From the NCBI GenBank assembly GCA_012959965.1, contig DUCF01000026.1, forward strand, positions 1 to 64,000: 64,000 nt of DNA, in the 5' to 3' direction. How positions within the stretch are numbered: the stretch's first letter is position 1; the number at the start of each line of letters is the position of its first letter. The position numbers and the translations under genes were made by a program. The stretch comes from Candidatus Thioglobus sp. Lineage in GTDB: Bacteria > Pseudomonadota > Gammaproteobacteria > PS1 > Pseudothioglobaceae. Of the stretch, positions 15,676 through 41,967 are shown one piece after another. Under the pieces are notes generated by a model that was given only the letters and a program-made list of their open reading frames with translations, had not been told where the DNA came from and made no database searches.

Positions 15676-16101
15676 ATGATCTGGTTTAAAGACTACACAA
15701 TTGAAGAAGTCAAAGTCTTGGTTGCCAATCAAAGTATTTTGGATCAATTGGGCATAGAGTTTGTTGAGATTGGCAAGGATTATTTAAAAGCTCGCATGCC
15801 GGTCGACAATCGAACACACCAAATTCATGGCATTCTACACGGTGGTGCAACCTGTGTTCTGGCTGAGACTATTGGCAGCATTGCCTCGGTGATGAGTATC
15901 AATTTAAAGCAAAAATACGCGGTTGGATCAGTGATTAGCGCCAACCACCTGCGCTCAGTGATAAATGGCTATGTGACTGCAACCTGCACAGCTATTCACA
16001 TTGGGCGTCAAAAACATGTGTGGCGCATTCTTGTGCGCAGTGACAAGGGAAAGTTAATCTCCACATGTGAACTCACTTGCGCGGTTGTCGATAAATTCTA
16101 G
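15676..16101 (+). CDS. PaaI/hotdog-fold thioesterase
   Basis: 141 aa; HQIHGILHGGATCVLAETIGS hotdog thioesterase motif. Confidence 0.88.
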   Translation: MIWFKDYTIEEVKVLVANQSILDQLGIEFVEIGKDYLKARMPVDNRTHQIHGILHGGATCVLAETIGSIASVMSINLKQKYAVGSVISANHLRSVINGYVTATCTAIHIGRQKHVWRILVRSDKGKLISTCELTCAVVDKF

Positions 16102-19100
16102 AGCGATAGTTGTGCCATTATAGTGTTGTGACTGGCTTTTGCTTTCTCAATATTGGCCGCCTTAACGGGGCCATAACCCTTAATCGCAAGGGGCAAGGAT
16201 AACAATTCCACGCATAATTCATAATTATCCGCAACAAGCCTCTGAATGACGAACTCAACGTCGAACTCAAAACTCTTAATCAGTGCTCGTTCTGCTCGAC
16301 GATCGTGGTGATAACCAAATACATCGAACGCTGTACCACGTAAGATTTTTAAACGCGCCAATAATGACAGAGAGGTTAGCATCCAAGGTCCAAAGGTTCG
16401 CTTTTTAGGGCGCCCTGTAGCAACATCAGTACCTGACAACATTGGTGGCGCCATATGAAGCTTTATTTTATAGTTCCCAGAGAATTGCGCTTTCAGCTCT
16501 TTAATAAAGTCCCCGTTAGTGTAAAGTCGCGCAACCTCGTATTCATCCTTATAAGCCAAAACCTTGTGATAACTTTGTGCAACCACTGTGCTTAAACTCT
16601 CCGCTGCGCCCATTGTTTCAAGCTCGACCTTAATAACACGATCAAGCAAACTCTTATAACGCCTCGCATAAGCCTTATTTTGATAATCTTCTAAGTAGCT
16701 CACACGCTTTGCTATCATCTGCTCAAGCCCAGCAACACTCTCATTAATCTCAGGAGTGCTATCGCCCAAAATCTCATGGAGTAGCTCTGCGAGTTTTTTG
16801 GGGTCATGTGCTGCCAAGCGACCATAAGCAAAAGCTTGCAAGTTCATCTCAATGGCAACACCATTCAAGGTAATTGCGCGCTCAATCGCCTCCAGACCGA
16901 CCGGTATCAAGCCTTTTTGCCAAGCAAAACCAAGCATCAGTACATTGGTGGCGATCTCGTCCCCTAGCAATGTCATCGCAAGCGGTGTAGCAGAAACGAA
17001 ATACTGTGAGCCGGCTTGAGTTGCTCCCATCAGAACGCTGCTCACTTGCTCATGACTAAGGTTAATCTCGTTATTAATAACAAAATCGGCGACGGGTGTA
17101 TTTTCTGTGTTGATAACTGCCCTAGTGCGCTCGGTATGGAGAGTTTCATAAGAAGTTTTGCCAGCCGCTGAAACCATGTCACAGGCCAGCAATAAATCAG
17201 CACCGCCTGCAATAATGTGTCCCGTGCGTAAATCATCACGCACCGGGCTAATACGCACATGACTGAGAACCTCACCACCTTTTTGCGCAAGTCCTGCAGC
17301 GTCAAGATTACGACAAAATTTCCCTTCCATATGTGCGGCAATACCCAGCAAGGCACCAATCGTTGTGACACCCGTACCGCCAATACCTGTGACCATAATA
17401 TTGTAAGCTTTATCTATTTTCATCACCTTCGGCTGAGGAATATTGGCCAACACATCATCAAAACTATTGTCCGCTTTAGTTTTGCGAAGCTCGCCGCCTT
17501 CAATTGTTACAAAAGACGGGCAAAAACCTTTTAAGCAACTAAAATCTTTATTGCACGCTGATTGGTTAATCTTGCGCTTACGACCGTATTCAGTCTCGAC
17601 CGGCTGTACAGCAACACAATTGGACTGTTCAGAACAATCGCCACAACCCTCGCACACCGCCTGATTAATCATAACGCGTTTCGCCGGATTAGAGAATTCG
17701 CCGCGTTTACGGCGACGACGTTTTTCTGCCGCACAAGTTTGATCGTAAATAATAACCGTCGTACCCTTTGTCTCTTGACATTGTTTAGCGACCTTATCAA
17801 GGTAATCACGGCTCAATATTTCAACCTCGCTCGGAAAGAGGCTACGATCTTTGTAATTCTCCAGAGTTTCAGTGAGTATCCACACCTTGGTGACGCCCTC
17901 TGAAACAACTTGTTGAGCCACACGATAAACGGGTAAATCACCATCCACAGTCTGGCCGCCGGTCATTGCTACAGCATCATTGTAGAGAATTTTATAAGTG
18001 ATATCAATTTTGGACGCTACCGCTGCGCGAATCGCAAGCGAACCTGAGTGGAAATAAGTGCCGTCACCTAAATTGGTAAAAATGTGTTTTTGCTTTGTAA
18101 AGGCAGATGAGCCAACCCATGGGATGCCTTCGCCGCCCATATGTGTCGGCAAAGCCGTATTACGATCCATCCACTGCACCATAAAATGACAGCCAATACC
18201 GGCCATAGCAAAACTGCCCTCAGGTACCTTGGTGGATGTATTATGCGGACAGCCTGCACAATAAAATGGTCTGCGCAGCATCGGTGGAACGTAGCTAGCC
18301 ATTGCCGCTTCTCTACCTTCAAAGAACTGTAAACACGCTTCAACTTGTTCATTATGATAAAAATGTCCAAGACGTTTTGCAATTACGTGCGCAACCAACC
18401 CTACAGACTGATCATTCTCCAGAGGCAATAATATTGCACTATTTTCATCGTATTTACCAACAACGACGGGGCGTGTCTCTGAAGGCCAGTTAAAGATTTG
18501 TTGCTTGAGCTGATACTCGATCATTTCGCGCTTTTCTTCAACAATCAGAATCTCTTCCAGTCCTTGAACAAAGTTTTGCACGCCTTGCGGCTCCAACGGC
18601 CACACCATACCAACCTTGTAAACCCGCAAGCCTATTTTTGCAGCAACCTCTTCAGTAATTCCAAGCTCAACCAGTGCTTGCATAACATCGCCATAGGATT
18701 TACCCGAGGTAATAATACCAAAACGTGGATTAGGGCTGTCCATGACTGTTTTATCAATTTTGTTCTTACGACAAAAGGCGTGACAAGCAAAAGCTTTATA
18801 GTTTTGCAATCGATCATCAATTTCACGTGGAACGTCATTAAGACGTATGTGAACACCGCCCTCTGGCATGCTAAATTCGTCTGCATTCGGCTGCAAGATT
18901 TCTTGCTTTTCTATTGACAAGTCCACAGTGCCTGTTGTTTCTACGGTTTCGCTCGTCACCTTAAGTGCAGTCCAGCATCCTGAGTAGCGTGACATCTCGA
19001 TACCGAGCAATCCGTACTCTACAAACTCATTAATACTGGATGGATACAAAACTGGAATAATCATCGATGCCAGAACATGATCACTCTGACATGACAATGT

Positions 19101-19583
19101 CGAAGATTTGCAGCCATGGTCGTCGCCAACAATCGCAAGCACGCCGCCATATGGCGCCGTACCGTGAGCGCTTGCATGGCGCAACGCATCAATCGAGCGA
19201 TCAACGCCGGGCGCTTTTCCATACCAAATACCAAACACACCGTCATAATCAGAGCCGCCTGGCATCAAATTAACCTGCTGTGTACCCCAGATCGATGTTG
19301 CCGCTAAATCCTCGTTCAAGCCTGGATGAAACTTAATGTCTAAATCTTCTAGATATTTATTGGCACGCGTTAATTCGGCGTCATAGCCACCTAAAGGCGA
19401 GCCTCGATAGCCAGAAATAAATCCCGCTGTTTTGAGGCCGGCCGCCTTATCTCTACGGCGCTGAACAATTGGAATTCTGGTTAAGGCCTGCAGCCCCGAC
19501 ATAAAGGCAACCCCATCACTTAGCTCATACTTGTCACTAAGAGATATATCTCCATATTGAATAGATTTAAGTTGTTGCGTCAT
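16098..19583 (-). CDS. Indolepyruvate (2-oxoacid):ferredoxin oxidoreductase, fused alpha/gamma subunits
   Basis: 1161 aa; GYRGSPLGGYD N-terminus, TPP region LGDGTYFHSGSLAIRAAV, Fe-S segment CEGCGDCSEQSNC, C-terminal gamma domain GIGGTGVTTIGALLG. Confidence 0.92.
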   Translation of the reverse strand: MTQQLKSIQYGDISLSDKYELSDGVAFMSGLQALTRIPIVQRRRDKAAGLKTAGFISGYRGSPLGGYDAELTRANKYLEDLDIKFHPGLNEDLAATSIWGTQQVNLMPGGSDYDGVFGIWYGKAPGVDRSIDALRHASAHGTAPYGGVLAIVGDDHGCKSSTLSCQSDHVLASMIIPVLYPSSINEFVEYGLLGIEMSRYSGCWTALKVTSETVETTGTVDLSIEKQEILQPNADEFSMPEGGVHIRLNDVPREIDDRLQNYKAFACHAFCRKNKIDKTVMDSPNPRFGIITSGKSYGDVMQALVELGITEEVAAKIGLRVYKVGMVWPLEPQGVQNFVQGLEEILIVEEKREMIEYQLKQQIFNWPSETRPVVVGKYDENSAILLPLENDQSVGLVAHVIAKRLGHFYHNEQVEACLQFFEGREAAMASYVPPMLRRPFYCAGCPHNTSTKVPEGSFAMAGIGCHFMVQWMDRNTALPTHMGGEGIPWVGSSAFTKQKHIFTNLGDGTYFHSGSLAIRAAVASKIDITYKILYNDAVAMTGGQTVDGDLPVYRVAQQVVSEGVTKVWILTETLENYKDRSLFPSEVEILSRDYLDKVAKQCQETKGTTVIIYDQTCAAEKRRRRKRGEFSNPAKRVMINQAVCEGCGDCSEQSNCVAVQPVETEYGRKRKINQSACNKDFSCLKGFCPSFVTIEGGELRKTKADNSFDDVLANIPQPKVMKIDKAYNIMVTGIGGTGVTTIGALLGIAAHMEGKFCRNLDAAGLAQKGGEVLSHVRISPVRDDLRTGHIIAGGADLLLACDMVSAAGKTSYETLHTERTRAVINTENTPVADFVINNEINLSHEQVSSVLMGATQAGSQYFVSATPLAMTLLGDEIATNVLMLGFAWQKGLIPVGLEAIERAITLNGVAIEMNLQAFAYGRLAAHDPKKLAELLHEILGDSTPEINESVAGLEQMIAKRVSYLEDYQNKAYARRYKSLLDRVIKVELETMGAAESLSTVVAQSYHKVLAYKDEYEVARLYTNGDFIKELKAQFSGNYKIKLHMAPPMLSGTDVATGRPKKRTFGPWMLTSLSLLARLKILRGTAFDVFGYHHDRRAERALIKSFEFDVEFVIQRLVADNYELCVELLSLPLAIKGYGPVKAANIEKAKASHNTIMAQLSL

Positions 19584-19674
19584 TATATTTCCTTAATAAA
19601 TCTTAGTGCGAACGGCAGAATTCAAGATGTGGCAAACAATAGGAGTGAGACTGATAATCTGCCACATACAAATT

Positions 19675-19745
19675 ATTATACTGAAATATTTACTTATAAC
19701 CGAATTAAATACATAATATATCGTAATAATCAAAACTATATTATG
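19675..19745 (-). promoter_or_regulatory. 71-bp shared promoter/operator element, copy A (upstream of IOR)
   Basis: Ungapped alignment with 20890-20960 and 27810-27880; minus-strand TATAAT at 19675-19680; CAAAACTATATTATG at 19731-19745. Confidence 0.85.
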
Positions 19746-19875
19746 TTTATAATAAAAAGGAGTTACAATTATCAACACCTCCTGATGGTACAAGGGGGCG
19801 GACTTTTCTTACTTCACGCTAGACTATAAAGTAGGTCATACCCACCGCTCTAAACCGCGACTTTTGTATACAGCT

Positions 19876-19975
19876 TTAAAATCTTAAACCGCCCTCTAGT
19901 TCAATTAAGCAACCATTCATGTGGTGTTTTCGATAGCAAACAAAGCACAAGCGTCATCAGAAATGAAACTGGCGT
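19876..19975 (-). pseudogene. Decayed 3' end of a short-chain dehydrogenase (paralogue of the SDR at 27936-28688)
   Basis: Reverse strand reads ...DDACALFAIENT(-1 frameshift)HMNGCLIELEGGLRF*, versus ...QAILFVIENDYMNGRLIELDGGLRF* in the intact SDR. Confidence 0.8.
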
Positions 19976-20385
19976 TGGCGGTAGTCAGGAGGACGCCTGT
20001 ATTAAATGTAGAGACAGTATCGAAATTTGTCTATTTGTAGTTAGTCGGACGCCCTTCAGTCGTAACTATTATCGAGCGTTTGCGGCTGGTGGATTTGCCG
20101 GCCCTTCTTCAGGGTTTGAGTCAACATTGCTAATAGGTGGCAAAGCCCACAATAGTTGTTTGCATGGCAGGACCATACGTCTTATTTACCGTTGCACATG
20201 GCGTACTTATAGGCGGGCACACCTCAAGTTTTGCCTGACGAGCTAGCATTTAGCCCCAGCTTACCAACCCAAGCTGTCCATCGAGAGTGCGACCACTTAA
20301 ACCAACAAAAACTTTATGACTCACGTATCAGGGTGATTGATATTGTGTTGTGTGTATGATGTTGCTTTTTGCCTCTGTTGGCTAA

Positions 20386-20853
20386 TTAAGTTTTGTTGAT
20401 CGGTATTTTGGTTTCTTGCTTTAAAGTAGAAAGTACTACTAATGTTTTTAAGTGCTGGATATCTTGAATGTCTGTCAACTTATGAATGAGAAAATCCTCA
20501 TAGCCACTAATATTTTGGGTAGCAACTTTCAAGAGAAAATCTGCACCGCCAGTAATACGGTGACACTCCAGAACTTCTTGTAAATCAGTTATTTCTTCCG
20601 TAAATCGAAGTAGTGCGTCTTTGCCGTGTCGCGCTAGAGTCACTTCAACATAAGTAAAACAGTTGGTATTAACTTTAGCAGGGTCGACTATGGCAACAAA
20701 CCTTTTAATGTAACCATTGCTTTCCAGTTTTTTAACCCGCTCTAACGTTGTTGGTGGGGACAAGTTGACCATTACTGCGAGGTCACGATTTGTGAGACGG
20801 CCATCGTCTTGAAGAGCGTCTAGGATTTTTCTGTCAATGTTATCGAGCTGCAT
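20386..20853 (-). CDS. Lrp/AsnC family transcriptional regulator
   Basis: 155 aa; LDNIDRKILDALQDDGRLTNRDLAVMVNLSPPTTLERVKKLE wHTH plus RAM domain. Confidence 0.95.
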   Translation of the reverse strand: MQLDNIDRKILDALQDDGRLTNRDLAVMVNLSPPTTLERVKKLESNGYIKRFVAIVDPAKVNTNCFTYVEVTLARHGKDALLRFTEEITDLQEVLECHRITGGADFLLKVATQNISGYEDFLIHKLTDIQDIQHLKTLVVLSTLKQETKIPINKT

Positions 20854-20889
20854 GTTGGTTCTATAATGTTAAGTGAGAATTAACAAAAT

Positions 20890-20960
20890 ATTTTACTTCA
20901 ATGTTTAGGTATTGCCGAATTATATAAACAATACTTCAATTTAACCAAAACTATATTTTG
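20890..20960 (-). promoter_or_regulatory. 71-bp shared promoter/operator element, copy B (upstream of Lrp gene)
   Basis: Aligns without gaps to copies A and C; CAAAACTATATTTTG at 20946-20960; minus-strand -10-like TAAAAT at its gene-proximal end. Confidence 0.8.
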
Positions 20961-21044
20961 TTCGTTTAATTATAGCCGGGGAGAATTGCGTCTACACCAT
21001 CAAACCTTGCCCCAGCAACAAAACACCAGGTGCCAGGTTTTGAA

Positions 21045-22211
21045 TCATTTTGTCTCCGAAAACAACTCGCGACCAATCAGCATGCGCCGTATTTCGGAAG
21101 TACCCGCCCCTATTTCGTAGAGTTTGGCGTCTCGCAATAGGCGTCCAGCTGAAAACTCATTGGTATAGCCATTTCCACCTAAAGTTTGGATTGTTTGCAA
21201 GGCCATTTGAGTTGCGGCTTCTGCGCTCATTAAAATACATCCGGCAGCATCCTTACGTGTTGTTTCGCCTCGATCACAAGCCTGAGCGACTGCATAGACA
21301 TATGCACGTTGTGATGATAGGGTGGTATACATGTCAGCAATTTTTCCTTGCATTAGCTGGAATTGGCCAATAGGGCGATCAAATTGTTCGCGTTCATGAA
21401 TGTAAGGCACAACAACATCCATACACGCTTGCATTATTCCAAGGGGGCCGCCAGACAACACCAGGCGCTCATAATCCAGCCCACTCATCAGAACTTTGAC
21501 GCCCCCACCAACAACCCCAAGCACGTTCTCCGCCGGCACTTCGCAGTTTTGAAATACCAATTCACAAGTATTCGAGCCCCTCATCCCAAGCTTGTCAAGT
21601 TTTTGCGAAGTTGAAAATCCTGCCATCGCTCTTTCAACAATAAATGCAGTAATTCCCTTTGAGCCTGCCGCCATATCGGTTTTTGCATAAACCACTAATG
21701 TGTCTGCATCTGGGCCATTCGTAATCCACATTTTGCTACCATTTAAGATGTAGGTGTCGCCATTTTTTTTTGCTGACAAACGCATATTTACAACATCAGA
21801 TCCGGCACCTGTTTCACTCATAGCCAGTGCGCCAACATTCTCACCAGTTATTAATTTTGGCAAATATCTCTGGCGTTGTTCCTCAGAACCATTGCGCTGA
21901 ATTTGATTAATACATAAATTAGAATGAGCGCCGTAACTCAAACCTACAGAGGCCGAAGCTCTAGATATTTCCTCCACTGCTATAACGTGGGCTAGATAGC
22001 CCATCCCCGCTCCACCATAGCACTCTGAGGCAGTAATTCCAAGCAAACCCATGTCGCCCATTTTTTTCCACAAATCTTGTGGAAATTCGTTCTCCTTATC
22101 AATTTGTGCTGCGCGAGGCGCTATTTCTTCTTGTGCAAACTTGAAGAGTTCATCACGCAACATTTCAATTTCTGCTGAGTGGTTAAATTGTAATTTTGGA
22201 TAAGAAATCAT
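21045..22211 (-). CDS. liuA: Isovaleryl-CoA dehydrogenase
   Basis: 388 aa acyl-CoA dehydrogenase; [16 protein letters not shown], in liu operon. Confidence 0.92.
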
Positions 22212-27541: not shown

Positions 27542-27809
27542 CAGAGATCCCCTCGTAATTGAGTGCCAGCAGCGCTTAAGTCGGCAAATTTAAGATGCTG
27601 CTCTGCAAAAAAATTTATGTCAATATTTTTTAATTTCATGGCGAATTCAGTCCTGTTCATACACTAAAGCCTAGGGCTCTTTTCCTTTGCTAGTTTTCTA
27701 TACAGCCAACGGTCTTAGACATTTGCACAAGACCCTCGAAATTTTTTCTGTTGATTTTTTGTTATCCTTCACGGAGCTAAAAAACTCCACAATCAGTAAT
27801 TAACTAAAT

Positions 27810-27880
27810 ATTATACTGAAATAATTATATATTTCCTAATTAAGTAAATAATATTTAAGTTTAATCAAAACTATATTCTG
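27810..27880 (-). promoter_or_regulatory. 71-bp shared promoter/operator element, copy C (upstream of liuB)
   Basis: Aligns without gaps to copies A and B; TATAAT (minus) at 27810-27815; CAAAACTATATTCTG at 27866-27880. Confidence 0.85.
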
Positions 27881-27935
27881 TCATCAACAAGCTCCTTGTT
27901 GAGATGGGCGCTCCTTTTTTTGTTAGAAAGTAAGC

Positions 27936-28688
27936 TTAAAACCTAAGCCCACCATCCAGTTCAATTAAACGGCCATTCATATAGTCGTTTTCAATAACAA
28001 ATAAGATGGCTTGTGCCAATTCTTTACGATCACCCAAACGCCTTACTGGTATCATTTTTTCTATACGCTCCAACGCTTCTGGCTTCATAGAATCGGTCAT
28101 GTCGGTGGATATAACCCCGGGTGCAATGCCGACTGCACGAATATTAAAGCGTGCAAGTTCACGCGACCAAGTGGTGACTAAAGATGCTACGCCAGCCTTG
28201 CTTGCGGCGTAGTTACTTTGGCCAATATTACCCGACTTGGCAATGCTGGAAATATTAACAATAACCCCGCCGTTACCCGCTTGAGCCATAGCAGAAGCCG
28301 CTTCACGACCACACAAAAAAGTGCCTGTCAGGTTAACGTCAATCACAGATTGCCAGTGACTAAGGCTCATCTTATCCTGAAGCTCGCCATCTTTCACTTT
28401 GATGAGCATGCCATCACGCAGAATACCTGCGTTGTTGACTAGGCCGTCTAAACGGCCAAAATCATTGACTATTTTCGCAAACACTTCCTCTACTTGTTTC
28501 TCGTCTGCAACGTTACAAGCATAACCGCGACTGCTGCTGTTGCAGGATGATGCAGCTTCCTGCGCGACTTTTTCATCCAAATCAATGATAGCGCAGAGAG
28601 CGCCTTTACTGGCAATAAGCTGTCCTATTGCCAAACCCAAACCACGGGCACCGCCGGTAATAACGAAAACACAACCCTGAACTTGCAT
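27936..28688 (-). CDS. SDR family oxidoreductase (3-hydroxyacyl-CoA dehydrogenase type)
   Basis: 250 aa; TGGARGLGLAIG, NNAGILRDGM, YAASKAGVASL. Confidence 0.88.
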   Translation of the reverse strand: MQVQGCVFVITGGARGLGLAIGQLIASKGALCAIIDLDEKVAQEAASSCNSSSRGYACNVADEKQVEEVFAKIVNDFGRLDGLVNNAGILRDGMLIKVKDGELQDKMSLSHWQSVIDVNLTGTFLCGREAASAMAQAGNGGVIVNISSIAKSGNIGQSNYAASKAGVASLVTTWSRELARFNIRAVGIAPGVISTDMTDSMKPEALERIEKMIPVRRLGDRKELAQAILFVIENDYMNGRLIELDGGLRF

Positions 28689-28690
28689 AT

Positions 28691-29578
28691 TTACTCCTTG
28701 TTGTAATACTTGAAAATACTTGAAAAATCACATTTGCCGTTGTTAGCCTTTGCATGAGCCTCAAATAAAGCTGCGGCCTGCTCACCCATAGGCACTGTTG
28801 AGCTGCTTTCTTGAGCCACTCCCAACGCTAAGTTTAAATCTTTATTCATTAAATCAACCATAAACCCGCCTTGATAGTTGTTACAGGCTGGCGTACCAGG
28901 CATCACGCCGGGCACGGGGTTGTAAACTTCTAACGCCCAATTGCGGCCAGAACTTTTCACCATAATGTCCGATAAGATTTTGGGATCTAAGCCGTTTTCA
29001 ATCCCCATTTGTAGCGCTTCCGCAGTGCCAGCCATTAAAACGCTTAGCAGCATATTATTGCACGTCTTGGCAATTTGCCCTGAACCCACGCCGCCTGCGT
29101 GAAAAATATTCTTGCCCATGGCTTCTAGGATGGGTTTTGCACGAGCGAAGCATGCGGCTTCGCCACCAACAATGAAACTCAAAGTTCCTGCTTCCGCACC
29201 ACTGACTCCACCAGAAACAGGGGCGTCGATAAAGTCAATTCCTGCCTTGAATGCTGTTGCTCCGACTTGGCGCGCGGTTGTTGCATCAATGGTGCTTGAG
29301 TCAATGACTAAGCAGCCCTTAGGAAGTTGAGCCAGCAAACCATCTTCTGATCTATATAGTTCGTTGACGTGCTTTCCAGCGGGCAACATGCTAATCACCA
29401 CTTCAGCGTCCTCAGCCGCCTCTTTTGCCGAGCTGGCCTGTTTGCCGCCTGCGGCTACAAAGCTTTGTATTGACGCAGGTATTAAATCAAAAGCCTTTAC
29501 CCGGTAACCGGCTTTAACAAGATTAACAGCCATGGGAAGCCCCATGTTGCCAAGACCAATAAATGCAATTTTTGTCAT
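28691..29578 (-). CDS. mmsB: 3-hydroxyisobutyrate dehydrogenase
   Basis: KIAFIGLGNMGLPMAVNLVKAGY, DAPVSGGVSGAEAGTLSFIVGG. Confidence 0.93.
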   Translation of the reverse strand: MTKIAFIGLGNMGLPMAVNLVKAGYRVKAFDLIPASIQSFVAAGGKQASSAKEAAEDAEVVISMLPAGKHVNELYRSEDGLLAQLPKGCLVIDSSTIDATTARQVGATAFKAGIDFIDAPVSGGVSGAEAGTLSFIVGGEAACFARAKPILEAMGKNIFHAGGVGSGQIAKTCNNMLLSVLMAGTAEALQMGIENGLDPKILSDIMVKSSGRNWALEVYNPVPGVMPGTPACNNYQGGFMVDLMNKDLNLALGVAQESSSTVPMGEQAAALFEAHAKANNGKCDFSSIFKYYNKE

Positions 29579-29602
29579 CGTATTTTCCATATAGTAAAAG
29601 AA

Positions 29603-30700
29603 TTAAACTTCAAAGTCTGGTTTCATTATTTTGTGGCGTTGATAAAAACCCTCCAACCAAGCTAGAGGGACATCCTTCACTTTGGAGTAACGCCACTTAG
29701 GCTGGTGATCTTTATCAATTAATAACGCTCGAACACCTTCTTGAAACTCACCTTTACGTGTACTATTAACGGCTAACACATATTCTTGAACAAACCCTTG
29801 TACTAAATCTTGTGGTGCTTGTCGCAATTGTCGAAAAGTTAAATGCAAACTTGTCGGTGAGCCGTTTTCCATAGTCTCAATAGCTTTATCAAGCCACTTA
29901 CTGAGCCCCTTAAGCTTCTGTAAATTAGCAAAAACAGTGTTTAAGTCTTGCGCGGCTAACGCATTGATAATTGATTGTTTGTGAGGCGAAATATTCGATG
30001 ACGGTGCGTTATTAGCCTTAGACTCAAGGTTTTGTACAAGGTTTTGTATAGATTTGAGGTGCTCGGTATTTGTTTGCTTCTTAAGATTTTGTAATTGCTG
30101 TAATAAAACTGAATAATCAGAATCGGCTAACAAAGCGTCCACTAGATTTAATTTTCGTGCATCGGTACCGTTAACCGCAGCACCTGTCAGACCTAAAAAC
30201 AAACCAAGACCATCGGGGACTTTTTGCAAGAAAAAGCTGGCACCCACGTCTGGAAATAGGCCAATACTGACCTCAGGCATTATCAAACGACTGGAATGCG
30301 TTGCAATACGCAAGCCGGCTCCTTGAAGTAAACCCATGCCTCCGCCGATAACATAGCCTTGCCCCCATACCAGCAAAGGTGTTTGCATGCTGTGCATGAC
30401 TACAATAAGACTGTATTCGAGATTAAAGAAGTCCTGACCATGTTCGATTTCACCTCTCTGCATGGCTTGGTAAAGGTGTCGAATATCACCTCCAGCACAA
30501 AAAGAACGATCCCCCATGCCTCGCATAACAACGGCAGCGACACTTGGATCGGACTCCCACAAAGGCAGCTGCGCCAACAATATATTGATCATTTCAGCGG
30601 ATAACGCATTAAGTGACTTGGGCGCATTGAGAGTTACTTCAATAATTTTTTGCCCGGCCTGTGTCGAGTGGCTGGCGACGAGAATAGCTGCTTCAGTCAT
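29603..30700 (-). CDS. 3-hydroxyisobutyryl-CoA hydrolase (enoyl-CoA hydratase/isomerase family)
   Basis: FCAGGDIRHLYQ, MPEVSIGLFPDVGASFFL, HIBYL-CoA-H type. Confidence 0.9.
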   Translation of the reverse strand: MTEAAILVASHSTQAGQKIIEVTLNAPKSLNALSAEMINILLAQLPLWESDPSVAAVVMRGMGDRSFCAGGDIRHLYQAMQRGEIEHGQDFFNLEYSLIVVMHSMQTPLLVWGQGYVIGGGMGLLQGAGLRIATHSSRLIMPEVSIGLFPDVGASFFLQKVPDGLGLFLGLTGAAVNGTDARKLNLVDALLADSDYSVLLQQLQNLKKQTNTEHLKSIQNLVQNLESKANNAPSSNISPHKQSIINALAAQDLNTVFANLQKLKGLSKWLDKAIETMENGSPTSLHLTFRQLRQAPQDLVQGFVQEYVLAVNSTRKGEFQEGVRALLIDKDHQPKWRYSKVKDVPLAWLEGFYQRHKIMKPDFEV

Positions 30701-30711
30701 GGTAGAGATAC

Positions 30712-31488
30712 TTAGGTGTTGGTCCAATTTGGCTTGCGCTTATCTAAGAAGGCTTGCACCCCTTCTTTGCAATCGTTACTATCAAACAGGCGTACAAATG
30801 CATCACGCTCATAGGCCATTCCTGCAAACATGGGCTCTTTACGAGCGGTTTGAATAAGGCGTTTGCACGCTGTAATACTGGTAGGGCTTTGGCGTTCGGC
30901 TTTCTCAGCCCACTCAATAGCTCTCTCTACCGCCTGTCCTTGTTCTACCACGGCTTCGACTAAGCCGATTTGCAACGCCTGTTCGGCGTTTACTTTCTCA
31001 CCACACAGAATCATACGCTTAGCCCAGCCCTCGCCCACTAGCCAAGCAAGATTTTGAGTGCCGCCGGCACAAGGCAACAAACCCACCGATGCTTCAGGAA
31101 GCGCCATCACAGCTTGTTGTTCGGCAATACGCAAATCACAAGCAAGGGCAACCTCCAAACCACCGCCCATGGCATAACCATTAATAGCGGCTATACTGAG
31201 ACCACGAAATTGACTTAGTGTTTCAAAAGCACGACCAAAGGCCGTAGACATTTCCGCGGCTATTTGTTTGTCGCCTTCGGCGAATAACTTAAGATCGGCG
31301 CCCGCACTGAAGAATTTTTCACCCTTGCCGGTGATAATCAGACTGTAAACTTCTTTATTGGCATTAAGTTCGTCAACGAGCTCCACCAATGCGTCCAAGC
31401 TCTCACGAGTCCAAGTGTTCGCCGGTGGGTTGTCTATGGTTACTAAGGCCAAATGACCCTGAATATCTACTTTAAGGATGTCGCTCAT
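30712..31488 (-). CDS. Enoyl-CoA hydratase
   Basis: 258 aa crotonase family; FSAGADLKLFAEGD, INGYAMGGGLEVALACDLRIA. Confidence 0.92.
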   Translation of the reverse strand: MSDILKVDIQGHLALVTIDNPPANTWTRESLDALVELVDELNANKEVYSLIITGKGEKFFSAGADLKLFAEGDKQIAAEMSTAFGRAFETLSQFRGLSIAAINGYAMGGGLEVALACDLRIAEQQAVMALPEASVGLLPCAGGTQNLAWLVGEGWAKRMILCGEKVNAEQALQIGLVEAVVEQGQAVERAIEWAEKAERQSPTSITACKRLIQTARKEPMFAGMAYERDAFVRLFDSNDCKEGVQAFLDKRKPNWTNT

Positions 31489-31541
31489 TATATTGTCCTG
31501 CTGATGATTATTTTTTGGCCTCTGTTTGCCTTAAGGTTGCG

Positions 31542-32699
31542 CTACAAAATGGCCTGATGATCGGCCAGTAAAATACGTCGTGCGATAATGACTCGCATAA
31601 TTTCATTAGTGCCCTCTAGAATACGGTGTACACGTGAATCACGTAGGTATCGCTCCATGGGGAACTCTTTGATATAGCCGTTACCACCAAAACACTGCAG
31701 CGCCTCGTCACACACTTGATAGCCAATATCGGTAGCAAAGCGCTTGGCCATGGCGCAATAGGTGCTTGCATCTGGGTCTTGCGAATCCAACTTAAATGCC
31801 GCTAAACGCACCATTTGCCTAGCTGCAACAAGTTCGGTATTCATATCAGCAAGCTTAAATTGAATGCCTTGAAACGCTGCAATAGGTTTGCCAAATTGCT
31901 TACGCTCATTGACATAAGCTAGCGCATCTGCCATTGCTTGTTGGGCCGTACCGATACCGACAGTGGCGATATTAATCCGCCCACCGTCGAGACCTTTCAT
32001 GGCAATGGCAAAACCCTCGCCCTCTTGACCCAAAAGATTTTCGACGGGTACCCGAACACGATCAAAATTGATCGTCCGAGTCGGTTGGGCATTCCAGCCC
32101 ATCTTGCTCTCTTTTCGGCCGTAACTAATGCCATCACTATCCGCGTTGACCACAAATGCTGAGATGCCCTTAGAGCCAGCGCCACCTGTACGGGCCATCA
32201 CCACCAGCACGTCGGTTTCACCCGCACCGGAGATAAACGCTTTATTGCCAGTAATAACGTAATGATCGCCATCAAGCAAAGCTTTGGTACTAAGGGCTGC
32301 TGCGTCAGAGCCAGCGCTTGATTCAGTCAGGCAGTAAGATGCTAGCAACTCACCGCTGGTTAGCTTTTCGCCGAAAGTTTGACGAGTCGCTGAGCTGCCG
32401 AAATCAGTCACCATCCAAGAAGCCATATTGTGAATAGTAAGCATCGCGGTGGTGGTAGTACACCCCATAGCCAGCTGTTCAAAGATCAACGACGAATCCA
32501 AACGAGACAGGCCCAAACCGCCAATTTCTGGGTCACAATAGAGACCACAAAAACCTAATTCACCCGCTTGTTTTAAGGTTTTTACAGGAAAGATTGCCTC
32601 TGCATCCCAACGCGCCGCATTAGGTGCAAGCTCGTTAGTGGCAAACTGTTGCGCTAAATCTATATAAGCACGTTGATCTTCATTTAAATCAAAATTCAT
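31542..32699 (-). CDS. Acyl-CoA dehydrogenase (isobutyryl-CoA dehydrogenase-like)
   Basis: MNFDLNEDQRAYIDLAQQFA; CFGGNGYIKEFPMERYLRDSRVHRILEGTNEIMR. Confidence 0.9.
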   Translation of the reverse strand: MNFDLNEDQRAYIDLAQQFATNELAPNAARWDAEAIFPVKTLKQAGELGFCGLYCDPEIGGLGLSRLDSSLIFEQLAMGCTTTTAMLTIHNMASWMVTDFGSSATRQTFGEKLTSGELLASYCLTESSAGSDAAALSTKALLDGDHYVITGNKAFISGAGETDVLVVMARTGGAGSKGISAFVVNADSDGISYGRKESKMGWNAQPTRTINFDRVRVPVENLLGQEGEGFAIAMKGLDGGRINIATVGIGTAQQAMADALAYVNERKQFGKPIAAFQGIQFKLADMNTELVAARQMVRLAAFKLDSQDPDASTYCAMAKRFATDIGYQVCDEALQCFGGNGYIKEFPMERYLRDSRVHRILEGTNEIMRVIIARRILLADHQAIL

Positions 32700-32713
32700 G
32701 TCACACTCCTGAG

Positions 32714-33892
32714 TTAAACCAATTCTACGGCCATAGCTGTTGCTTCGCCACCACCGATACACAAGCTCGCTATTCCGCGTTTTAATCCTTTGTTTTTAAG
32801 CGCTGTAATGAGGGTTAAGATAATACGAGAACCGGTAGAGCCAATAGGGTGTCCTTGGGCGCAAGCTCCACCGTATACATTGACCTTTCTCGCATCCAAG
32901 TTAAGCTCTTGTATGGCCAGCATAGTTACCATGGCAAAGGCTTCATTTATTTCAAACAGATCCACGTCTTCTACTGTCCAGTTCATTTTATCTAACAGCC
33001 CTTGCATCGCGCCAATAGGCGCAATGGTAAACTCACCCGGCTCACGGGCAAAACTGTGTACTCCGAGAATTTGCGCCATCGGTTGCCAGCCAGTCTCCAC
33101 AACAGCCTTACCGCTGGCCAACACTAAAGCCGAAGCACCATCAGAAATAGAGCTGGCATTAGCTGCGGTTATGGTGCCGTCTTTTTTAAACGCAGCGCGC
33201 AGTTGTGGTATTTTGTCAAGCCGCGCCTGACCCGGCTGCTCATCAATCACAACCGTCACTACGCCTTTTCGATTACTAATAACGACAGACTCTATTTCGC
33301 TCTCAAGGTCGCCGTTTTTAATGGCGGCGTTGGCTTTCGATAAAGAACCTATAGCAAACTCATCCATAGCCTCACGACTTAGGCCGTAATCGTCTGCTGT
33401 TGTCTGGGCAAAAGCGCCCATCAAGCCACCTTCGTAGGCGTCTTCCAAGCCGTCAAAAAACATATGATCGAGCATTTTTCCGTGGCCCATACGCATACCT
33501 TGTCGCACCTTGGGCAATAAGTAGGGCGCATTGGTCATACTTTCCATGCCGCCGCACAGCATGACGTTAGCCGACCCTGCTTTGATGGCATTAAAACCCA
33601 TAATAGTGGTTTGCATGCCCGAGCCGCACATCTTGTTAACAGTGGTGCAAGGAACACTTTTTGCCAACCCTGCGCCTAATGCTGCCTGACGTGCTGGCGC
33701 TTGGCCTTGGCCTGCGGCCAATACACAGCCCATGTAGACTTCATCAATTTGATCGGCGTTGACGCCACCTCGTTTGAGTGCGCCCGCAATAGCAACAGCA
33801 CCCAGTTGGGCTGCATTTTGGCTACCTAAACTGCCGTCTAGAGCTCCCATTGGGGTGCGACTACCGGAAATAATATAAACTTCTTCACTCAT
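32714..33892 (-). CDS. Acetyl-CoA C-acetyltransferase (thiolase)
   Basis: NKMCGSGMQTTIMG, GGACAQGHPIGSTGSR, CIGGGEATAMAVE. Confidence 0.94.
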   Translation of the reverse strand: MSEEVYIISGSRTPMGALDGSLGSQNAAQLGAVAIAGALKRGGVNADQIDEVYMGCVLAAGQGQAPARQAALGAGLAKSVPCTTVNKMCGSGMQTTIMGFNAIKAGSANVMLCGGMESMTNAPYLLPKVRQGMRMGHGKMLDHMFFDGLEDAYEGGLMGAFAQTTADDYGLSREAMDEFAIGSLSKANAAIKNGDLESEIESVVISNRKGVVTVVIDEQPGQARLDKIPQLRAAFKKDGTITAANASSISDGASALVLASGKAVVETGWQPMAQILGVHSFAREPGEFTIAPIGAMQGLLDKMNWTVEDVDLFEINEAFAMVTMLAIQELNLDARKVNVYGGACAQGHPIGSTGSRIILTLITALKNKGLKRGIASLCIGGGEATAMAVELV

Positions 33893-34063
33893 CAAATGTA
33901 ACTCCAATTTATTTTTGTGTAACGCATTTTTCTCTGGTTGGTTTTTTTCATCAACAACAAAGACAATTGCAATATGCAATTATTATACATACCCCTAAAT
34001 CCTACAAACTGGCTGGTGGCTTTTGCGGTAATAACAGCAATCAATAATTATTCAAATCATCAG

Positions 34064-34109
34064 TATTATTAATCTGCAATAAGAATGCTTTGATTGCAGA
34101 TTAATAATA
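34064..34109. repeat. 17-bp perfect inverted repeat with 12-nt spacer
   Basis: TATTATTAATCTGCAAT - aagaatgctttg - ATTGCAGATTAATAATA. Confidence 0.95.
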
Positions 34110-34150
34110 TTGCTAATTTTCAATTTTTTATAATCCTTTAAATGAAAAAT

Positions 34151-34171
34151 GCCAGTGGCAAAAGCCACTGA
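34151..34171 (-). terminator. Terminator-like hairpin after the Liv binding protein gene
   Basis: CAGTGGC-AAAA-GCCACTG; minus strand continues into CATTTTTCATTT. Confidence 0.65.
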
Positions 34172-34197
34172 CATTAGTCAATTAAACAAAACTATGT

Positions 34198-35523
34198 TTA
34201 ATTACAGCTTCTAGGTGTAATACCTTTTTCTGCTGCGTACTGAGCGGCTGAAGCCTTATACAAATCCCATAGGAGTTCGTCGTTAGGCTCTATCCAATCA
34301 GTTATATTTTGCCAAGCATTGCCGTCCCACTGGGTTACCTTCGCACGACCTTGTCCAGCGTGATCCGCACAACTAAGCTTTATAGGATCCATCATGCCTG
34401 TAGCTCCAAGCTCATCGATACGGGACGCGGTAAGATCTAAACGATCAAGTGCCCACTGCATTTGCTTACCTGTTACCGGTGCATTGACAGATGCGTTCAT
34501 TGCTGAACTCATTGCTTCAGTCAATAAAATACCCGCCATCACGCCTCGGTTATAGGCCTGTTGACCAACCTTATCAACTGAATCAGCAGAACCAAGACCT
34601 TTGGAGTACAAGACTTCTTTGATTTCAGCATGGATAGGGAATGTTCCTGAGCCAGTAAACTGCATTGATTTATAACCAATAGCTGCATCACCAGCAGGGA
34701 TCACATCAGGCTCGTTACCAGACCACCAGATGCCGATAAACTTATCCCTAGGGAAGTTAACAGCAGCAGCCTCTTTAATCGCTGTTGCGTTCATAACGCC
34801 CCAGCCCCACATCAAGACATAATCAGGACGCAATTGACGACCGATTTTCAACCAAGTTGATTTTTGCTCTAAACCAGGGTGAGGAACCGGGAATAACGAC
34901 AACTCGAAACCGTGTTCTGCCGCAAGATACTCAAGCGTTTTAATAGGCTCTTTACCATAAGCAGACTGATGATAAACTAGGGCAATTTTCTTGCCATTTA
35001 GTTGGTCATAGCCGCCTTCTTCGCTGGCAATATAGTTAATGCCAATATCTGCACCAGCCCAGTAAGTGGTTGGTGGTACGAATACCCATGGAAATACCGT
35101 TCCATCAGCAGCATCAGCACGACCATAGGCCGAGGTGATCAATGGAATCTCGTCTGCTACGACGCGATCCAGCAATGCGTAAGTTACACCTGTTGATAAT
35201 GGCATAACTGCCGGCATACCTGTAGGGCCGTTATTTTTCATGCGCTCATAGCACTCAACACCTTTGTCGGTGTTGTAGCCGAAATCGCACTCTTCCAGAT
35301 CCAAGTGGACACCGTTGACACCACCATCGCGTTCGTTAAGCATATTAATATAGTCAGAAAAACCATCAGCGTAAGGAACGCCGGCTGGTGCATATGGACC
35401 AGAACGGTAAACCAGTGCGCCGACAAACTGCGACTCGGCTGCAACAGCTGCTGTTGCAGCCGTCAGACTGGTCGCAGCAATTGATGCGGCAATCAGTCCT
35501 TGTGTTATGTGTTTCATTTCCAT
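34198..35523 (-). CDS. Branched-chain amino acid-type ABC transporter substrate-binding protein
   Basis: 441 aa with signal peptide; FVGALVYRSGPYAPAGVPYADGFSDYINMLNERDGGVNG. Confidence 0.9.
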   Translation of the reverse strand: MEMKHITQGLIAASIAATSLTAATAAVAAESQFVGALVYRSGPYAPAGVPYADGFSDYINMLNERDGGVNGVHLDLEECDFGYNTDKGVECYERMKNNGPTGMPAVMPLSTGVTYALLDRVVADEIPLITSAYGRADAADGTVFPWVFVPPTTYWAGADIGINYIASEEGGYDQLNGKKIALVYHQSAYGKEPIKTLEYLAAEHGFELSLFPVPHPGLEQKSTWLKIGRQLRPDYVLMWGWGVMNATAIKEAAAVNFPRDKFIGIWWSGNEPDVIPAGDAAIGYKSMQFTGSGTFPIHAEIKEVLYSKGLGSADSVDKVGQQAYNRGVMAGILLTEAMSSAMNASVNAPVTGKQMQWALDRLDLTASRIDELGATGMMDPIKLSCADHAGQGRAKVTQWDGNAWQNITDWIEPNDELLWDLYKASAAQYAAEKGITPRSCN

Positions 35524-35602
35524 CTTTAAACTCTCCTATTTTTATTAGTAGTTTTAACGCCCTTTTTTGTTCACCAAAGTAAATACAAAAGGCGCGAATT
35601 TG

Positions 35603-35632
35603 ATAATACGCCTAATTTATACTAATTGTCAA
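35603..35632 (-). promoter_or_regulatory. Sigma70-like promoter of the substrate-binding protein gene, -35 overlapped by operator TTGTCAACAA
   Basis: Minus strand TTGACA (35627-35632) - N18 - TATTAT (35603-35608); TTGTCAACAA at 35626-35635; second site TTGTTAACAA at 35698-35707. Confidence 0.72.
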
Positions 35633-35798
35633 CAATTTATTCAAATAATTCATATAATTCAATTATTTATGCATATTTGGTCCTAAAAACAATATTATTG
35701 TTAACAACATTACAAATTTGTAGGGTCTTGGCTACAATAGCCAACAATCAGAGTGAATTAGTTAAAAAACACCAGTTTGGAGTCTTTATACTCACTCT

Positions 35799-36629
35799 TC
35801 AGTTGGGCGTACTAGGCTTAGTGGCAACAAATTCAACCACACTTAGCCTATCATTCTGAAGGGCTTCTAGTAAATTTTCCATCATGGTTAAAAAGCTCTC
35901 GCCAAGAATGATTTCAAGGCCCGGCTCTTTTTTTCCTCCTTGTTTTATTCTCTCAATCACTCTCTGAATGCTGACTATTGCTGTCGAACTGACATCCTGT
36001 AGATGATTAAGCTCAAATCCACAATTATGGATTAATGCGCCATAATTATGGATATTGTCAAGAAAACTATCTTTCGACTCTTTCGCCCAAGGCAGGGGAT
36101 AGTTGACGCTGTCATTGGCCCGTGTTGTACAGAGCACTTCGTACATTAACAGCTGCCCGGCTGGTTTTAAAACTCGATAAAACTCTGTCATCAGCGCTTT
36201 TTTATCGCAAATATTCATGGTTATATGCTGAGTCCATAATGCACTATAACTATTTTTTTTAAATGGCATCTTAAGCGCATTAGCTCTTATGAATTTAGTT
36301 TGATTGCCCATGTTCAATTGCTTGGAAATCAATCTTGCTGCCTGGCAATAGTCTTCACTCAAGTCAACTCCAGTAACATGGCAATTACTCGTACAAGCTA
36401 TGGTTCGTGCAGCGCCGCCGATACCACAGCCAACATCCAACACCTTATCTTGTGGATTAAAACCTGCTAATTCAATCATCTTAAGCGTTGCAGCTAACCC
36501 GCCAATGTGAAATTGATCGACAGCAGCAATAATCTTATGGTCAAACGGTTTGTTGAGTTGCTTTGCATGGTTTAACGCAGCGCGAACCAATTGCTCCAAG
36601 TTGTGACGACGATAATGGCTTGAAGTCAT
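35799..36629 (-). CDS. Class I SAM-dependent methyltransferase
   Basis: KVLDVGCGIGGAARTIA motif I; ATGA overlap with upstream CoA-transferase gene. Confidence 0.88.
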   Translation of the reverse strand: MTSSHYRRHNLEQLVRAALNHAKQLNKPFDHKIIAAVDQFHIGGLAATLKMIELAGFNPQDKVLDVGCGIGGAARTIACTSNCHVTGVDLSEDYCQAARLISKQLNMGNQTKFIRANALKMPFKKNSYSALWTQHITMNICDKKALMTEFYRVLKPAGQLLMYEVLCTTRANDSVNYPLPWAKESKDSFLDNIHNYGALIHNCGFELNHLQDVSSTAIVSIQRVIERIKQGGKKEPGLEIILGESFLTMMENLLEALQNDRLSVVEFVATKPSTPN

Positions 36630-37717
36630 TTTTCGAAGGCTTGCCATCGCGGCTGTTCTTCAGCTTTGAATTCAAAGATGCCTGCTCTAAGCGCGACGCT
36701 GTCGTTATTGATATGAGCAGGATAAGCAGGCCCATCTCTTGTGAGCGCTCTTCTGGCTTTAATTTGTGGGTGAGAAGACATTTGTTCACCCAGCATCAAA
36801 GCTTCATAGCAACAGTCAACAGGTTCAAAAAATTGGTTCCAATGGTTGCGTGGCTGCTGCCTGAAAAGCTTGGTTACTTTGGCTATCAGCTGTTTTTGCG
36901 GCATTTCACTGTATTGTAAATCAAGCCACGCAGGCTTATCAACAGCAGCGCAAAAATTTTGCCAGAAATGTTTTTCCAGTGCCGCAAGGCTAATGAAATG
37001 ACCGTCACTGCATTGATAAATATTGTAACAGGCAGCGCCGCCGTTGAGCAATAATTCAGAACGCATATTATCTGACTCGAAAAAAGGCAGGTATTGCCAC
37101 GACAGACAAGACTCAAACAAGCTGACATCGATATAAGCGCCTTTTCCACTGCGGCGTCGTGCATGCAGTGCCGCTAAGATGCACACACTGGCCTGCATCG
37201 CACCTGCGTGATCTGCCAAAGGAGGATAAGTTATCACAGGTTGATTCTCAGAGCTGTTCAGCCCAAGTGCGCCACTGGCAGCACAATAGTTTAAATCGTG
37301 GCCTGCACGATGAAGATAAGGCCCACTTTGACCATAGCCTGACAAAGCACAATGGATGAGCTGAGGGTTGATTGAGTTGAGTGTTGTACGATCAAACCCC
37401 AATCGCTGCAACACACCAGGGCGAAAAGATTCCAGCAATACATCGGCATCCTTTAGCAGTTGGCGCAAATTTTGTTGTCCAGCGGATGATTTTAAATCGA
37501 GACGGCAAATTCTTTTACCGCGGTTTAAATGCCGGTAAACCGGCGAAGTTTCACTGTCGCCGGCATACATGAATCGACGCATCGGATCACCATCAGGAGG
37601 CTCAACCTTGATAACCTGCGCACCCAAGTCGGACAGCTGTCGTGTGGCAAAAGGTCCAGGAATGTATTGCGATAAATCCAGAATTTTAATGTCATCTAAA
37701 AACTCACTGGATTTCAT
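36626..37717 (-). CDS. CaiB/BaiF family CoA-transferase
   Basis: KILDLSQYIPGPFATRQLSDLGAQVIKVEPPDGDPMR. Confidence 0.93.
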   Translation of the reverse strand: MKSSEFLDDIKILDLSQYIPGPFATRQLSDLGAQVIKVEPPDGDPMRRFMYAGDSETSPVYRHLNRGKRICRLDLKSSAGQQNLRQLLKDADVLLESFRPGVLQRLGFDRTTLNSINPQLIHCALSGYGQSGPYLHRAGHDLNYCAASGALGLNSSENQPVITYPPLADHAGAMQASVCILAALHARRRSGKGAYIDVSLFESCLSWQYLPFFESDNMRSELLLNGGAACYNIYQCSDGHFISLAALEKHFWQNFCAAVDKPAWLDLQYSEMPQKQLIAKVTKLFRQQPRNHWNQFFEPVDCCYEALMLGEQMSSHPQIKARRALTRDGPAYPAHINNDSVALRAGIFEFKAEEQPRWQAFEK

Positions 37718-37732
37718 GCTGTTTAACCAATC

Positions 37733-38968
37733 TTAGTCATATTTGCGTATATCGTCGATAACTATGCCATCATTGGGCAGTGAACCGGGTTCAAGCAGTT
37801 CTACCTCGCCACGCAGTTTACAAATTTCACGAATGCTGTCACGAATCGCTGCATTGAGTGATTGATCAGCGCACGAGGTTTCGCATTGTAGGGTTATCTG
37901 ATCAGCCTCATCAATCCAGTTTATTGTGAGTCGGGCACGACTGATTTCAGGATAGCGCTGAACAATTTTATTGACCTGCTCCGGGTGAATAAACATACCG
38001 CGTACTTTTGCGGTTTGATCGGCTCGTCCCATCCAGCCTTTGATGCGCTTATTGGTTCGTCCACACGGGCTTTCCCCCGACATAATGGTAGAAAGATCGC
38101 CGGTTGCAAATCGTATCAGCGGGTAGTCTGGGTTCAAACTGGTGACTACTACTTCGCCAACTTCACCGTCTGCCACCCTGTCACCAGTACCGGGACGCAC
38201 GATTTCAAGATAAACGCCTTCATCAATAATCAAACCTTCCTGGGCTTTTGATTCGTAGGCAATAACGCCGAGGTCGGCAGTTGTATAACATTGCTGCACA
38301 CGAATTCCCCGCTCGATAAGGCCTGTACGAATAGAGGGTGGTAGCGCCTCACCACTGACCATAGCCTTTTTAATCGAACTAACATCAAGATTCAGCTCGT
38401 GGGCCTTATCAAGAATAATTTTCAAAAAAGAGGGTGTGCCGACATAACCGTTCGGACGCAGGTCCGCAATAGTCTGCGCCTGGAGTTCTGTTTGTCCGAC
38501 TCCGGCCGGAACCACACTACAGCCCAGTGCATGAGCGCCACTATCGACCATGGCTCCTGCTGGGGTAAAATGATACGAAAAACAGTTGTGCAGAAGATCC
38601 CCAGATCTAAAACCAGCTGCGTAGAGAGCTCTCGCGAAGTTAGCGAAATCTGTCCTAGCGGTGCCTGGTTCATATATAGGCCCCGGCGAGGCGAATATAT
38701 GGGTAAGTCGCCCATTTTGCATGGCCTCCATCCCGCCAAAGGGAGGCGTGAGACGTTGCTTTTCAACAAGTTCAGATTTTCTCGTGACAGGCAGTTTACT
38801 GATAGCATTAACATCCAGCAGGTGTTCCGGCTCAAAATCTTTTAATAGTAGTTTGTAAGCAACAGAATGCTCTTTAGCATGCGCTATCTGCTTACGAATA
38901 GCTTGGCAAAGCGCCTGCTCACGCTGCTCTGCATTTCGAGTTTCTAGGGAATCATAAAATTCACTCAT
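37733..38968 (-). CDS. PaaK-like AMP-dependent acyl/aryl-CoA ligase
   Basis: 411 aa; ASPGPIYEPG, QQCYTTADLGVIAYES, RFATGDLS; phenylacetate-CoA ligase family. Confidence 0.87.
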   Translation of the reverse strand: MSEFYDSLETRNAEQREQALCQAIRKQIAHAKEHSVAYKLLLKDFEPEHLLDVNAISKLPVTRKSELVEKQRLTPPFGGMEAMQNGRLTHIFASPGPIYEPGTARTDFANFARALYAAGFRSGDLLHNCFSYHFTPAGAMVDSGAHALGCSVVPAGVGQTELQAQTIADLRPNGYVGTPSFLKIILDKAHELNLDVSSIKKAMVSGEALPPSIRTGLIERGIRVQQCYTTADLGVIAYESKAQEGLIIDEGVYLEIVRPGTGDRVADGEVGEVVVTSLNPDYPLIRFATGDLSTIMSGESPCGRTNKRIKGWMGRADQTAKVRGMFIHPEQVNKIVQRYPEISRARLTINWIDEADQITLQCETSCADQSLNAAIRDSIREICKLRGEVELLEPGSLPNDGIVIDDIRKYD

Positions 38969-38992
38969 AATAGTTATAGTGCTGCTGCGACT

Positions 38993-39808
38993 TTACGTTA
39001 GCCAGCGTTTACGGCGGCGATAGTTTTTAACATTACGAAAGTTCTTTTTACCTTCTTTTGAAATGCCAAGATAAAATTCTTTTACATCTTCATTTTCAGC
39101 AAGTTCGCTTGCGAGCCCCTCCATAACAATTCGCCCGTTTTCCATAATATAACCAAAATCTGAGTATCTCAATGCAATGTTAGTATTTTGTTCTGCGAGC
39201 AGAAAGGTGACGCCTTCTTGTTCGTTAAGTTGTTTTATTATTTCAAAAATATCTTCTACCAGCTGCGGCGCTAAACCCATAGAAGGCTCATCAAGTAATA
39301 TCATTTCAGGATTGGACATTAAAGCACGGCCAACTGCACACATTTGTTGTTCGCCACCCGATGTGTAACCAGCTTGACTTTTGCGTCGCTCAGCAAGACG
39401 CGGAAAATACTGATAAACCATCTCGAGATTTTTTGCTACTGCTTTACGCCCACCACTAAGGGTATAGGCCCCGGTGAGAAGGTTTTCTTCGATGGTCAAA
39501 TGCTCAAAACAATGGCGACCCTCCATGACCTGTATCACACCATGATCCACCAAATCGGCAGGGCTTTGACTCTCTACTTGCTGATCCTTATACAAAATAT
39601 TGCCTTTAGTCACAACACCTCTTTCCGCCCCAAGCAGGCCTGAAATTGACTTCAATGTGGTGCTCTTTCCAGCGCCATTAGCGCCCAGCAAAGCAATGAT
39701 ACTACCTTTAGGGACATTCAGTGAAACGCCTTTAAGAACAAGGATGACGTGATCATATATAACTTCAATATTGTTGATTTGCAATAAAGGGGTGTCTTGA
39801 TTGCTCAT
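38993..39808 (-). CDS. livF: ABC transporter ATP-binding protein, LivF family
   Basis: GANGAGKSTTLKSISGL, YTSGGEQQMCAVGRALM, LLDEPSMGLAP. Confidence 0.92.
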   Translation of the reverse strand: MSNQDTPLLQINNIEVIYDHVILVLKGVSLNVPKGSIIALLGANGAGKSTTLKSISGLLGAERGVVTKGNILYKDQQVESQSPADLVDHGVIQVMEGRHCFEHLTIEENLLTGAYTLSGGRKAVAKNLEMVYQYFPRLAERRKSQAGYTSGGEQQMCAVGRALMSNPEMILLDEPSMGLAPQLVEDIFEIIKQLNEQEGVTFLLAEQNTNIALRYSDFGYIMENGRIVMEGLASELAENEDVKEFYLGISKEGKKNFRNVKNYRRRKRWLT

Positions 39809-39881
39809 TTTAAGCTTTCCTTTTTATTATTTAACAGCGTTTATTTTCTACAGAGGTGCTTCTCATAGTCAATGCCCCATA

Positions 39882-40961: not shown

Positions 40962-40963
40962 TA

Positions 40964-41956: not shown

Positions 41957-41967
41957 GTTCTTTTTCC

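Follow-up and report, generated by a model that had tools for sequence, protein, structure and literature searches.

Genes and repeated elements of the locus

The window analysed here comprised 64,000 nucleotides of Candidatus Thioglobus sp. (GCA_012959965.1, contig DUCF01000026.1, positions 1-64,000, forward strand); searches of its own genome covered the 1.79-Mb draft of 95 contigs, and the genus comparison included the window species and 28 congeners (29 genus genomes), G043 and G019 among them. A branched-chain amino acid island between serA and an alpha/beta hydrolase gene (15037-45265) was present in the window species and in G043 only. On the minus strand were located a fused indolepyruvate ferredoxin oxidoreductase family protein (IOR, 16098..19583; NF009589, E 0), an Lrp/AsnC-family regulator (asnC, 20386..20853; Pfam HTH_24 and AsnC_trans_reg) and a liuA-like acyl-CoA dehydrogenase (21045..22211). 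An intact operon followed from 33979 to 27936 in the order thiolase, acyl-CoA dehydrogenase, enoyl-CoA hydratase, a second enoyl-CoA hydratase-family protein of the 3-hydroxyisobutyryl-CoA hydrolase type, 3-hydroxyisobutyrate dehydrogenase and SDR. Its thiolase (32714..33892, minus strand) probably starts at MSEEV, although the listed reading frame reaches 33979; the SDR (27936..28688, minus strand) was named by family assignment. Among the reading frames between IOR and the acyl-CoA synthetase (ACS) gene the Lrp/AsnC protein was the sole regulator recognized, a MerR-family regulator of the LiuR type being absent from these. An inverted repeat of 66 nt and 85 % identity (24186-24251 and 54200-54265) has one arm in liuD and the other in an accC-like gene, by its G043 orthologue a biotin carboxylase, and therefore probably reflects a conserved domain.

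An earlier note on this DNA had reported a 71-bp element before IOR and liuB. The element is real, the two copies sharing 78-79 % over 79 bp, and a third copy, missing from that account, precedes asnC. All three were read on the minus strand: E(IOR), the putative promoter/operator of IOR (19663..19746, with CAAAACTATATTATG at 19731-19745), E(asnC), a putative autoregulatory promoter/operator (20878..20961, with CAAAACTATATTTTG at 20946-20960), and E(liuB) (27798..27881, with CAAAACTATATTCTG at 27866-27880), of which 77 of 79 positions are identical in G043. Exactly these three copies, before asnC, liuB and IOR, and no fourth were found in the 1.79-Mb genome. The 15 best-conserved bases, CAAAACTATATTNTG, form a near-palindrome with three genome occurrences even when one mismatch is allowed; judged by sequence, the 15-mer CAAAACTATATTTTG has 5-bp arms, and a repeat, ACAAAATAT, lies at the opposite end of the element. 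The coding-strand end is a TATAAT-like hexamer, at asnC TAAAAT with TCGGCA 17 bp upstream. At the discriminating sites E(IOR) shares eight with E(liuB) and four with E(asnC), a weak preference. ACAxAATAT and its inverted repeat bound each element (19663-19746, 20878-20961, 27798-27881) about 60 bp apart, equal to six helical turns, a spacing that might be that of phased sites of a wrapping regulator. The Lrp/AsnC gene is encoded beside the elements and one of them stands at its own promoter; we infer that the element is probably the operator/promoter of this adjacent regulator, autoregulation included. The leader of IOR (19584-19672) has AAGGA ahead of the ATG and an 11-bp hairpin (TGTGGCA...TGCCACA), which is no more stable than shuffled sequences (z -0.78). 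No Rfam family was found over 19500-21100.

Relics of thiolase and SDR between asnC and IOR

The earlier note had recognized the decayed 3' end of an SDR gene upstream of IOR, and this was borne out. The relic SDR' (19876..19943, minus strand) is 77 % identical over 69 bp to the end of the intact SDR (27936-28004), with E values of 5e-8 when the remaining window was searched and 5e-7 for the own genome; the 1-nt deletion that had been noticed is present, and the DNA identity to the SDR of G043 is 78 %. With the element left out of the scored region, the relic region reached a local alignment score of 72, clearly above the background of 500 dinucleotide-preserving shuffles (27.8 +- 3.5, maximum 51). 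On the protein level, HMNGCLIELEGGLRF matched YMNGRLIELDGGLRF at 12 of 15 positions (E 3e-5). The peptide quoted in the note as SDR is a fusion: FAIENT and the following MNGCLIELEGGLRF do belong to the SDR, but DDACAL, read as part of SDDACAL, is derived from a thiolase (SDGASAL).

Directly upstream of SDR', on the same strand and in collinear order, three blocks of a thiolase gene were detected (thiolase', 20324-19941, minus strand). Block C (19941..20134) matches thiolase codons about 190-257, with 60.8 % identity over 199 nt to the thiolase of G019 (E 1.5e-10) and a score of 77 compared with 27.5 +- 3.3 in shuffles; against the thiolase of the window itself the DNA match covers 20031-19942 (E 7.6e-6), and the G019 gene extends it to 20134-19941. 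Block B (20142..20255), encoding STPCATVNKTYGPAMQTTIVGF, is 64.9 % identical over 114 nt to 33593-33706 (E 2e-8), and in tblastn STPCATVNKTYGPAMQTTIVGF aligned to VPCTTVNKMCGSGMQTTIMGF with 59 % over 34 amino acids (E 1.6e-8). Block A (20278..20324), about 62 nt past the asnC stop, corresponds to the gene start, identical to that of the window thiolase at 29 of 47 positions; it is weak by itself (E 1.1), and collinearity supports it. The thiolase' fragment joins SDR' at TTTG, where both parent genes have TTTG or TTTA. Between the two ends of the relic about 5.1 kb are missing, and inside thiolase' about 117 and about 263 nt. These deletions, the 1-nt deletion in SDR' and stops in all frames have destroyed the coding capacity. 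Overall, thiolase' is about 60-65 % identical to the intact thiolase copies and SDR' 77 % to the intact SDR.

Because thiolase' and SDR' follow each other collinearly on one strand, we read 19876-20324 as what a collapse has left of a second thiolase...SDR operon, a copy of the valine/isoleucine degradation operon that is intact at 33979-27936. The note's relic is real as an SDR end, but incomplete as a description, for what lies here behind a relocated asnC is a collapsed operon with thiolase and SDR. Chance similarity or an assembly chimera has a practically negligible probability. The genome is a draft of 95 contigs and a second partial serA is present on contig C34, but the collinear matches are independent of each other (E 8e-6 to 5e-8), and the relic cannot be a mis-joined copy because it is 23-40 % diverged from every copy found. 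The short contig itself (L158, G000:C34:1-4217, of the same bin) carries serA-pucG-g11712-g10751 again with 81-98 % protein identity to the window and probably comes from a second species in the bin. It is highly improbable that the relic belonged to an unrelated two-gene thiolase-SDR operon of the PhaA/PhaB type which was never part of the cluster: the two fragments do adjoin directly and the four intervening genes left no trace, but SDR' has 77 % DNA identity to this very SDR, the same element comes after it, and asnC stands in front as it does at the cluster head of G043. Paralogous copies of the relic genes and of the element were found within the own genome.

The order of SDR end, spacer, element and catabolic gene is alike at IOR and liuB, as had been proposed, and the region before IOR is homologous, in decayed form, to the SDR-element-liuB junction. 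Shared traces claimed for the two spacers were less convincing. The spacer between SDR' and E(IOR) (19747..19875, minus strand) has only weak homology to the SDR-liuB spacer, since 38 of 2000 shuffles scored as high against the spacer of the window and 503 of 2000 against that of the congener. Likewise, the spacer between asnC and thiolase' did not match the SBP-thiolase intergenic region. The 82 nt between liuA and E(asnC), at the border of the extra segment (20963..21044), were without significant match to the hydrolase flank or the region upstream of liuB.

Related genomes and exchange of the intact block

IOR, asnC and an SDR of this kind occur among the 28 congeners in G043 only and are absent from the other 27. 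In G043 (IOR contig L015) the stop codon of liuA and the start codon of IOR overlap as ATGA, neither relic nor element being present between the two genes, and liuA directly precedes IOR also in L016, L017 and L018, three of the nearest loci beyond the genus. Because liuA directly precedes IOR in all four, the liuA-IOR gap of the window, occupied by element-asnC-thiolase'-SDR'-element, is derived. The putative IOR promoter, and not that of liuB, is likewise the derived copy, since IOR in G043 has no promoter of its own at this place and stands at the end of the liu operon. The best IOR relatives outside the genus are MAGs labelled as Alphaproteobacteria (68-73 %), hinting at a transfer between classes.

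An intact SDR gene directly upstream of IOR, for which the earlier note had suggested a look at relatives, was present in none of the 72 IOR loci whose upstream sequence reached 700 bp or more, and no SDR of this kind lay in the 3 kb before IOR at any of the IOR loci surveyed. An AsnC-type gene was found within 3 kb upstream of the fused IOR in 22 of 80 IOR loci. These genes are mostly divergent in orientation and 28-38 % identical, whereas the asnC of the window has the same orientation as IOR and arrived together with the relic. Its G043 orthologue is located at the cluster head beside the hydrolase, in the order hydrolase<-element->asnC->acyl-CoA synthetase->transporter->thiolase...SDR->element. 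For this order the G043 contigs C21 and C40 were joined, because their 55 terminal bases are identical (L101 10506-10560 and L103 1-55, an assembler k-mer overlap). Where G043 carries element and asnC, the window has 197 nt without detectable homology (44949..45145). A decayed asnC in this stretch, as the scar of a reciprocal loss, was seen by eye only and rejected, since its scores did not exceed those of shuffled sequences (z 1.0-2.2). In deeper congeners no part of the cluster is present next to the hydrolase.

The genes of the block livG...thiolase...SDR-E(liuB) (27797..42650) share 92-98 % identity with G043, well above the 70-91 % of their neighbours (acyl-CoA synthetase, liu genes, asnC and flanks). 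Because of this difference, the intact catabolic and transport block of about 15 kb must be the product of a recent exchange with the lineage of G043, unless both acquired it from a common donor. Relic and element differ from the present block by 20-40 %; thus today's SDR-liuB junction is probably not their source, and the relic probably derives from an older copy. The proposal that the IOR promoter arose by a duplication of the SDR-liuB junction, or the reverse, holds in so far as the IOR side is the derived copy. As a simple segmental duplication of the present junction to the upstream region of IOR it is quite improbable: SDR end, spacer, element and gene do follow in the same order at both sites, but the relic also contains a thiolase and is preceded by asnC, and the present junction was recently exchanged, its SDR being 97.6 % identical to that of G043 compared with 77 % for the relic.

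Proposed origin of the putative IOR promoter and its regulatory meaning

Operon duplication followed by differential loss leaves gene relics in bacteria. For the present locus it is moderately probable that two tandem copies of the cluster existed, of which the IOR-side copy collapsed and left asnC and an element as IOR promoter, with the regulon being kept. Two copies of [element-asnC-...-thiolase...SDR-element] would have stood in tandem. The IOR-side copy would have lost about 117 and about 263 nt in the thiolase and about 5.1 kb between the middle of the thiolase and the final 20 or so codons of the SDR, closed at the TTTG join; a deletion of everything from the second element to the IOR start codon, the liu copy included, would have placed the element directly before IOR. 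The asnC gene and the element that formerly served the liu operon would be the survivors of the collapsed copy, while the asnC copy at the cluster head would have been lost. IOR, in the ancestral state itself the terminal, overlapping gene of the liu operon, would thereby have become a separate transcription unit under the same operator. The collinear same-strand thiolase' and SDR', the gene order of G043, the position of liuA right before IOR in L016, L017 and L018, the count of three elements, the eight versus four shared element sites and the AAGGA of IOR were counted in favour of tandem copies. Against them were counted the informative sites of thiolase', 20 shared with window/G043 and 23 with G019 so that it sides with neither, the weak preference of E(IOR) for E(liuB), and the fact that a single congener has the cluster. 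Before IOR there was no sign of a second liuBCDEA, and a first asnC at 44949-45145 was not above background (z 1.0-2.2); because both traces are missing, we infer the tandem stage from gene order alone.

A rather unlikely course, without any tandem duplication, starts from a cluster that had already shrunk to hydrolase-E-asnC-thiolase...SDR-E-IOR, or similar, in the ancestor that the window species shares with G019; a new ACS...liuA block would then have been acquired between the hydrolase and E-asnC, and the old thiolase-SDR, now redundant, would have decayed in place. Such a shrunken cluster is suggested by G019, in which the thiolase alone is left between hydrolase and serA, preceded by an AAAACA-n-TATAATT stretch similar to the outer end of the element in G043. 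The distance of only about 62 nt from asnC to thiolase' also fits, as does the mixed affiliation of the genes: thiolase...SDR is 94-98 % identical to G043 (thiolase 97 %), and the window thiolase is 81 % identical to that of G019, although most of the flanking genes are closer to those of G019. But ACS and the measured liu genes are only 78-86 % identical to G043, so one recent import cannot account for the whole block, and liuBCDEA would have to be lost and regained beside IOR, where the outgroups have it. Decay in place and collapse of a tandem copy lead to the same final anatomy, and in both the IOR promoter is the liuB-type element of a collapsed operon.

A tentative view sees the wreck as the vehicle that would have brought the Lrp/AsnC regulator and its operator into the middle of the liu-IOR operon, which was split but would remain in the same three-site regulon, the surviving operon being later replaced by interspecies exchange. 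The Lrp/AsnC protein is expected to bind all three elements (asnC, liuB, IOR), so that the degradation of leucine, isoleucine and valine would stay one regulon together with IOR. In the regulons of LiuR and LiuQ, MerR and TetR regulators of branched-chain amino acid degradation (PMC5343134), such genes also have a dedicated local regulator, whereas the candidate here is an Lrp/AsnC protein with its own putative site. Tandem duplications are known to activate transferred genes by promoter capture (PMC11111574). In these cases, as here, a structural change sets an existing promoter before a gene, but the IOR promoter would originate from the former operon of the gene itself, and regulon membership would be kept and not changed.

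A literature search revealed no description of this arrangement. The event is real and informative but of an ordinary type, in which an operon is duplicated or displaced and decays, and a promoter is captured. Like other relics of duplication and loss, the locus contains collinear pieces of a paralogous operon with broken reading frames, not far from the copy that survived, and its gene order is rearranged; it differs in that the wreck holds a regulator gene and leaves its operator as the putative promoter of a gene downstream. The surviving pieces are a regulator and its putative operator, and the split operon probably remains one regulon. The locus may be seen as a readable fossil of an operon that was split, probably without loss of co-regulation, the regulator gene and the old promoter being the sole living parts of the collapsed copy. 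It presents a compact candidate regulon of three sites (asnC, liuB, IOR) for an Lrp/AsnC regulator of leucine, valine and isoleucine degradation, and an exchange of a catabolic block of roughly 15 kb between species of a small-genome lineage.
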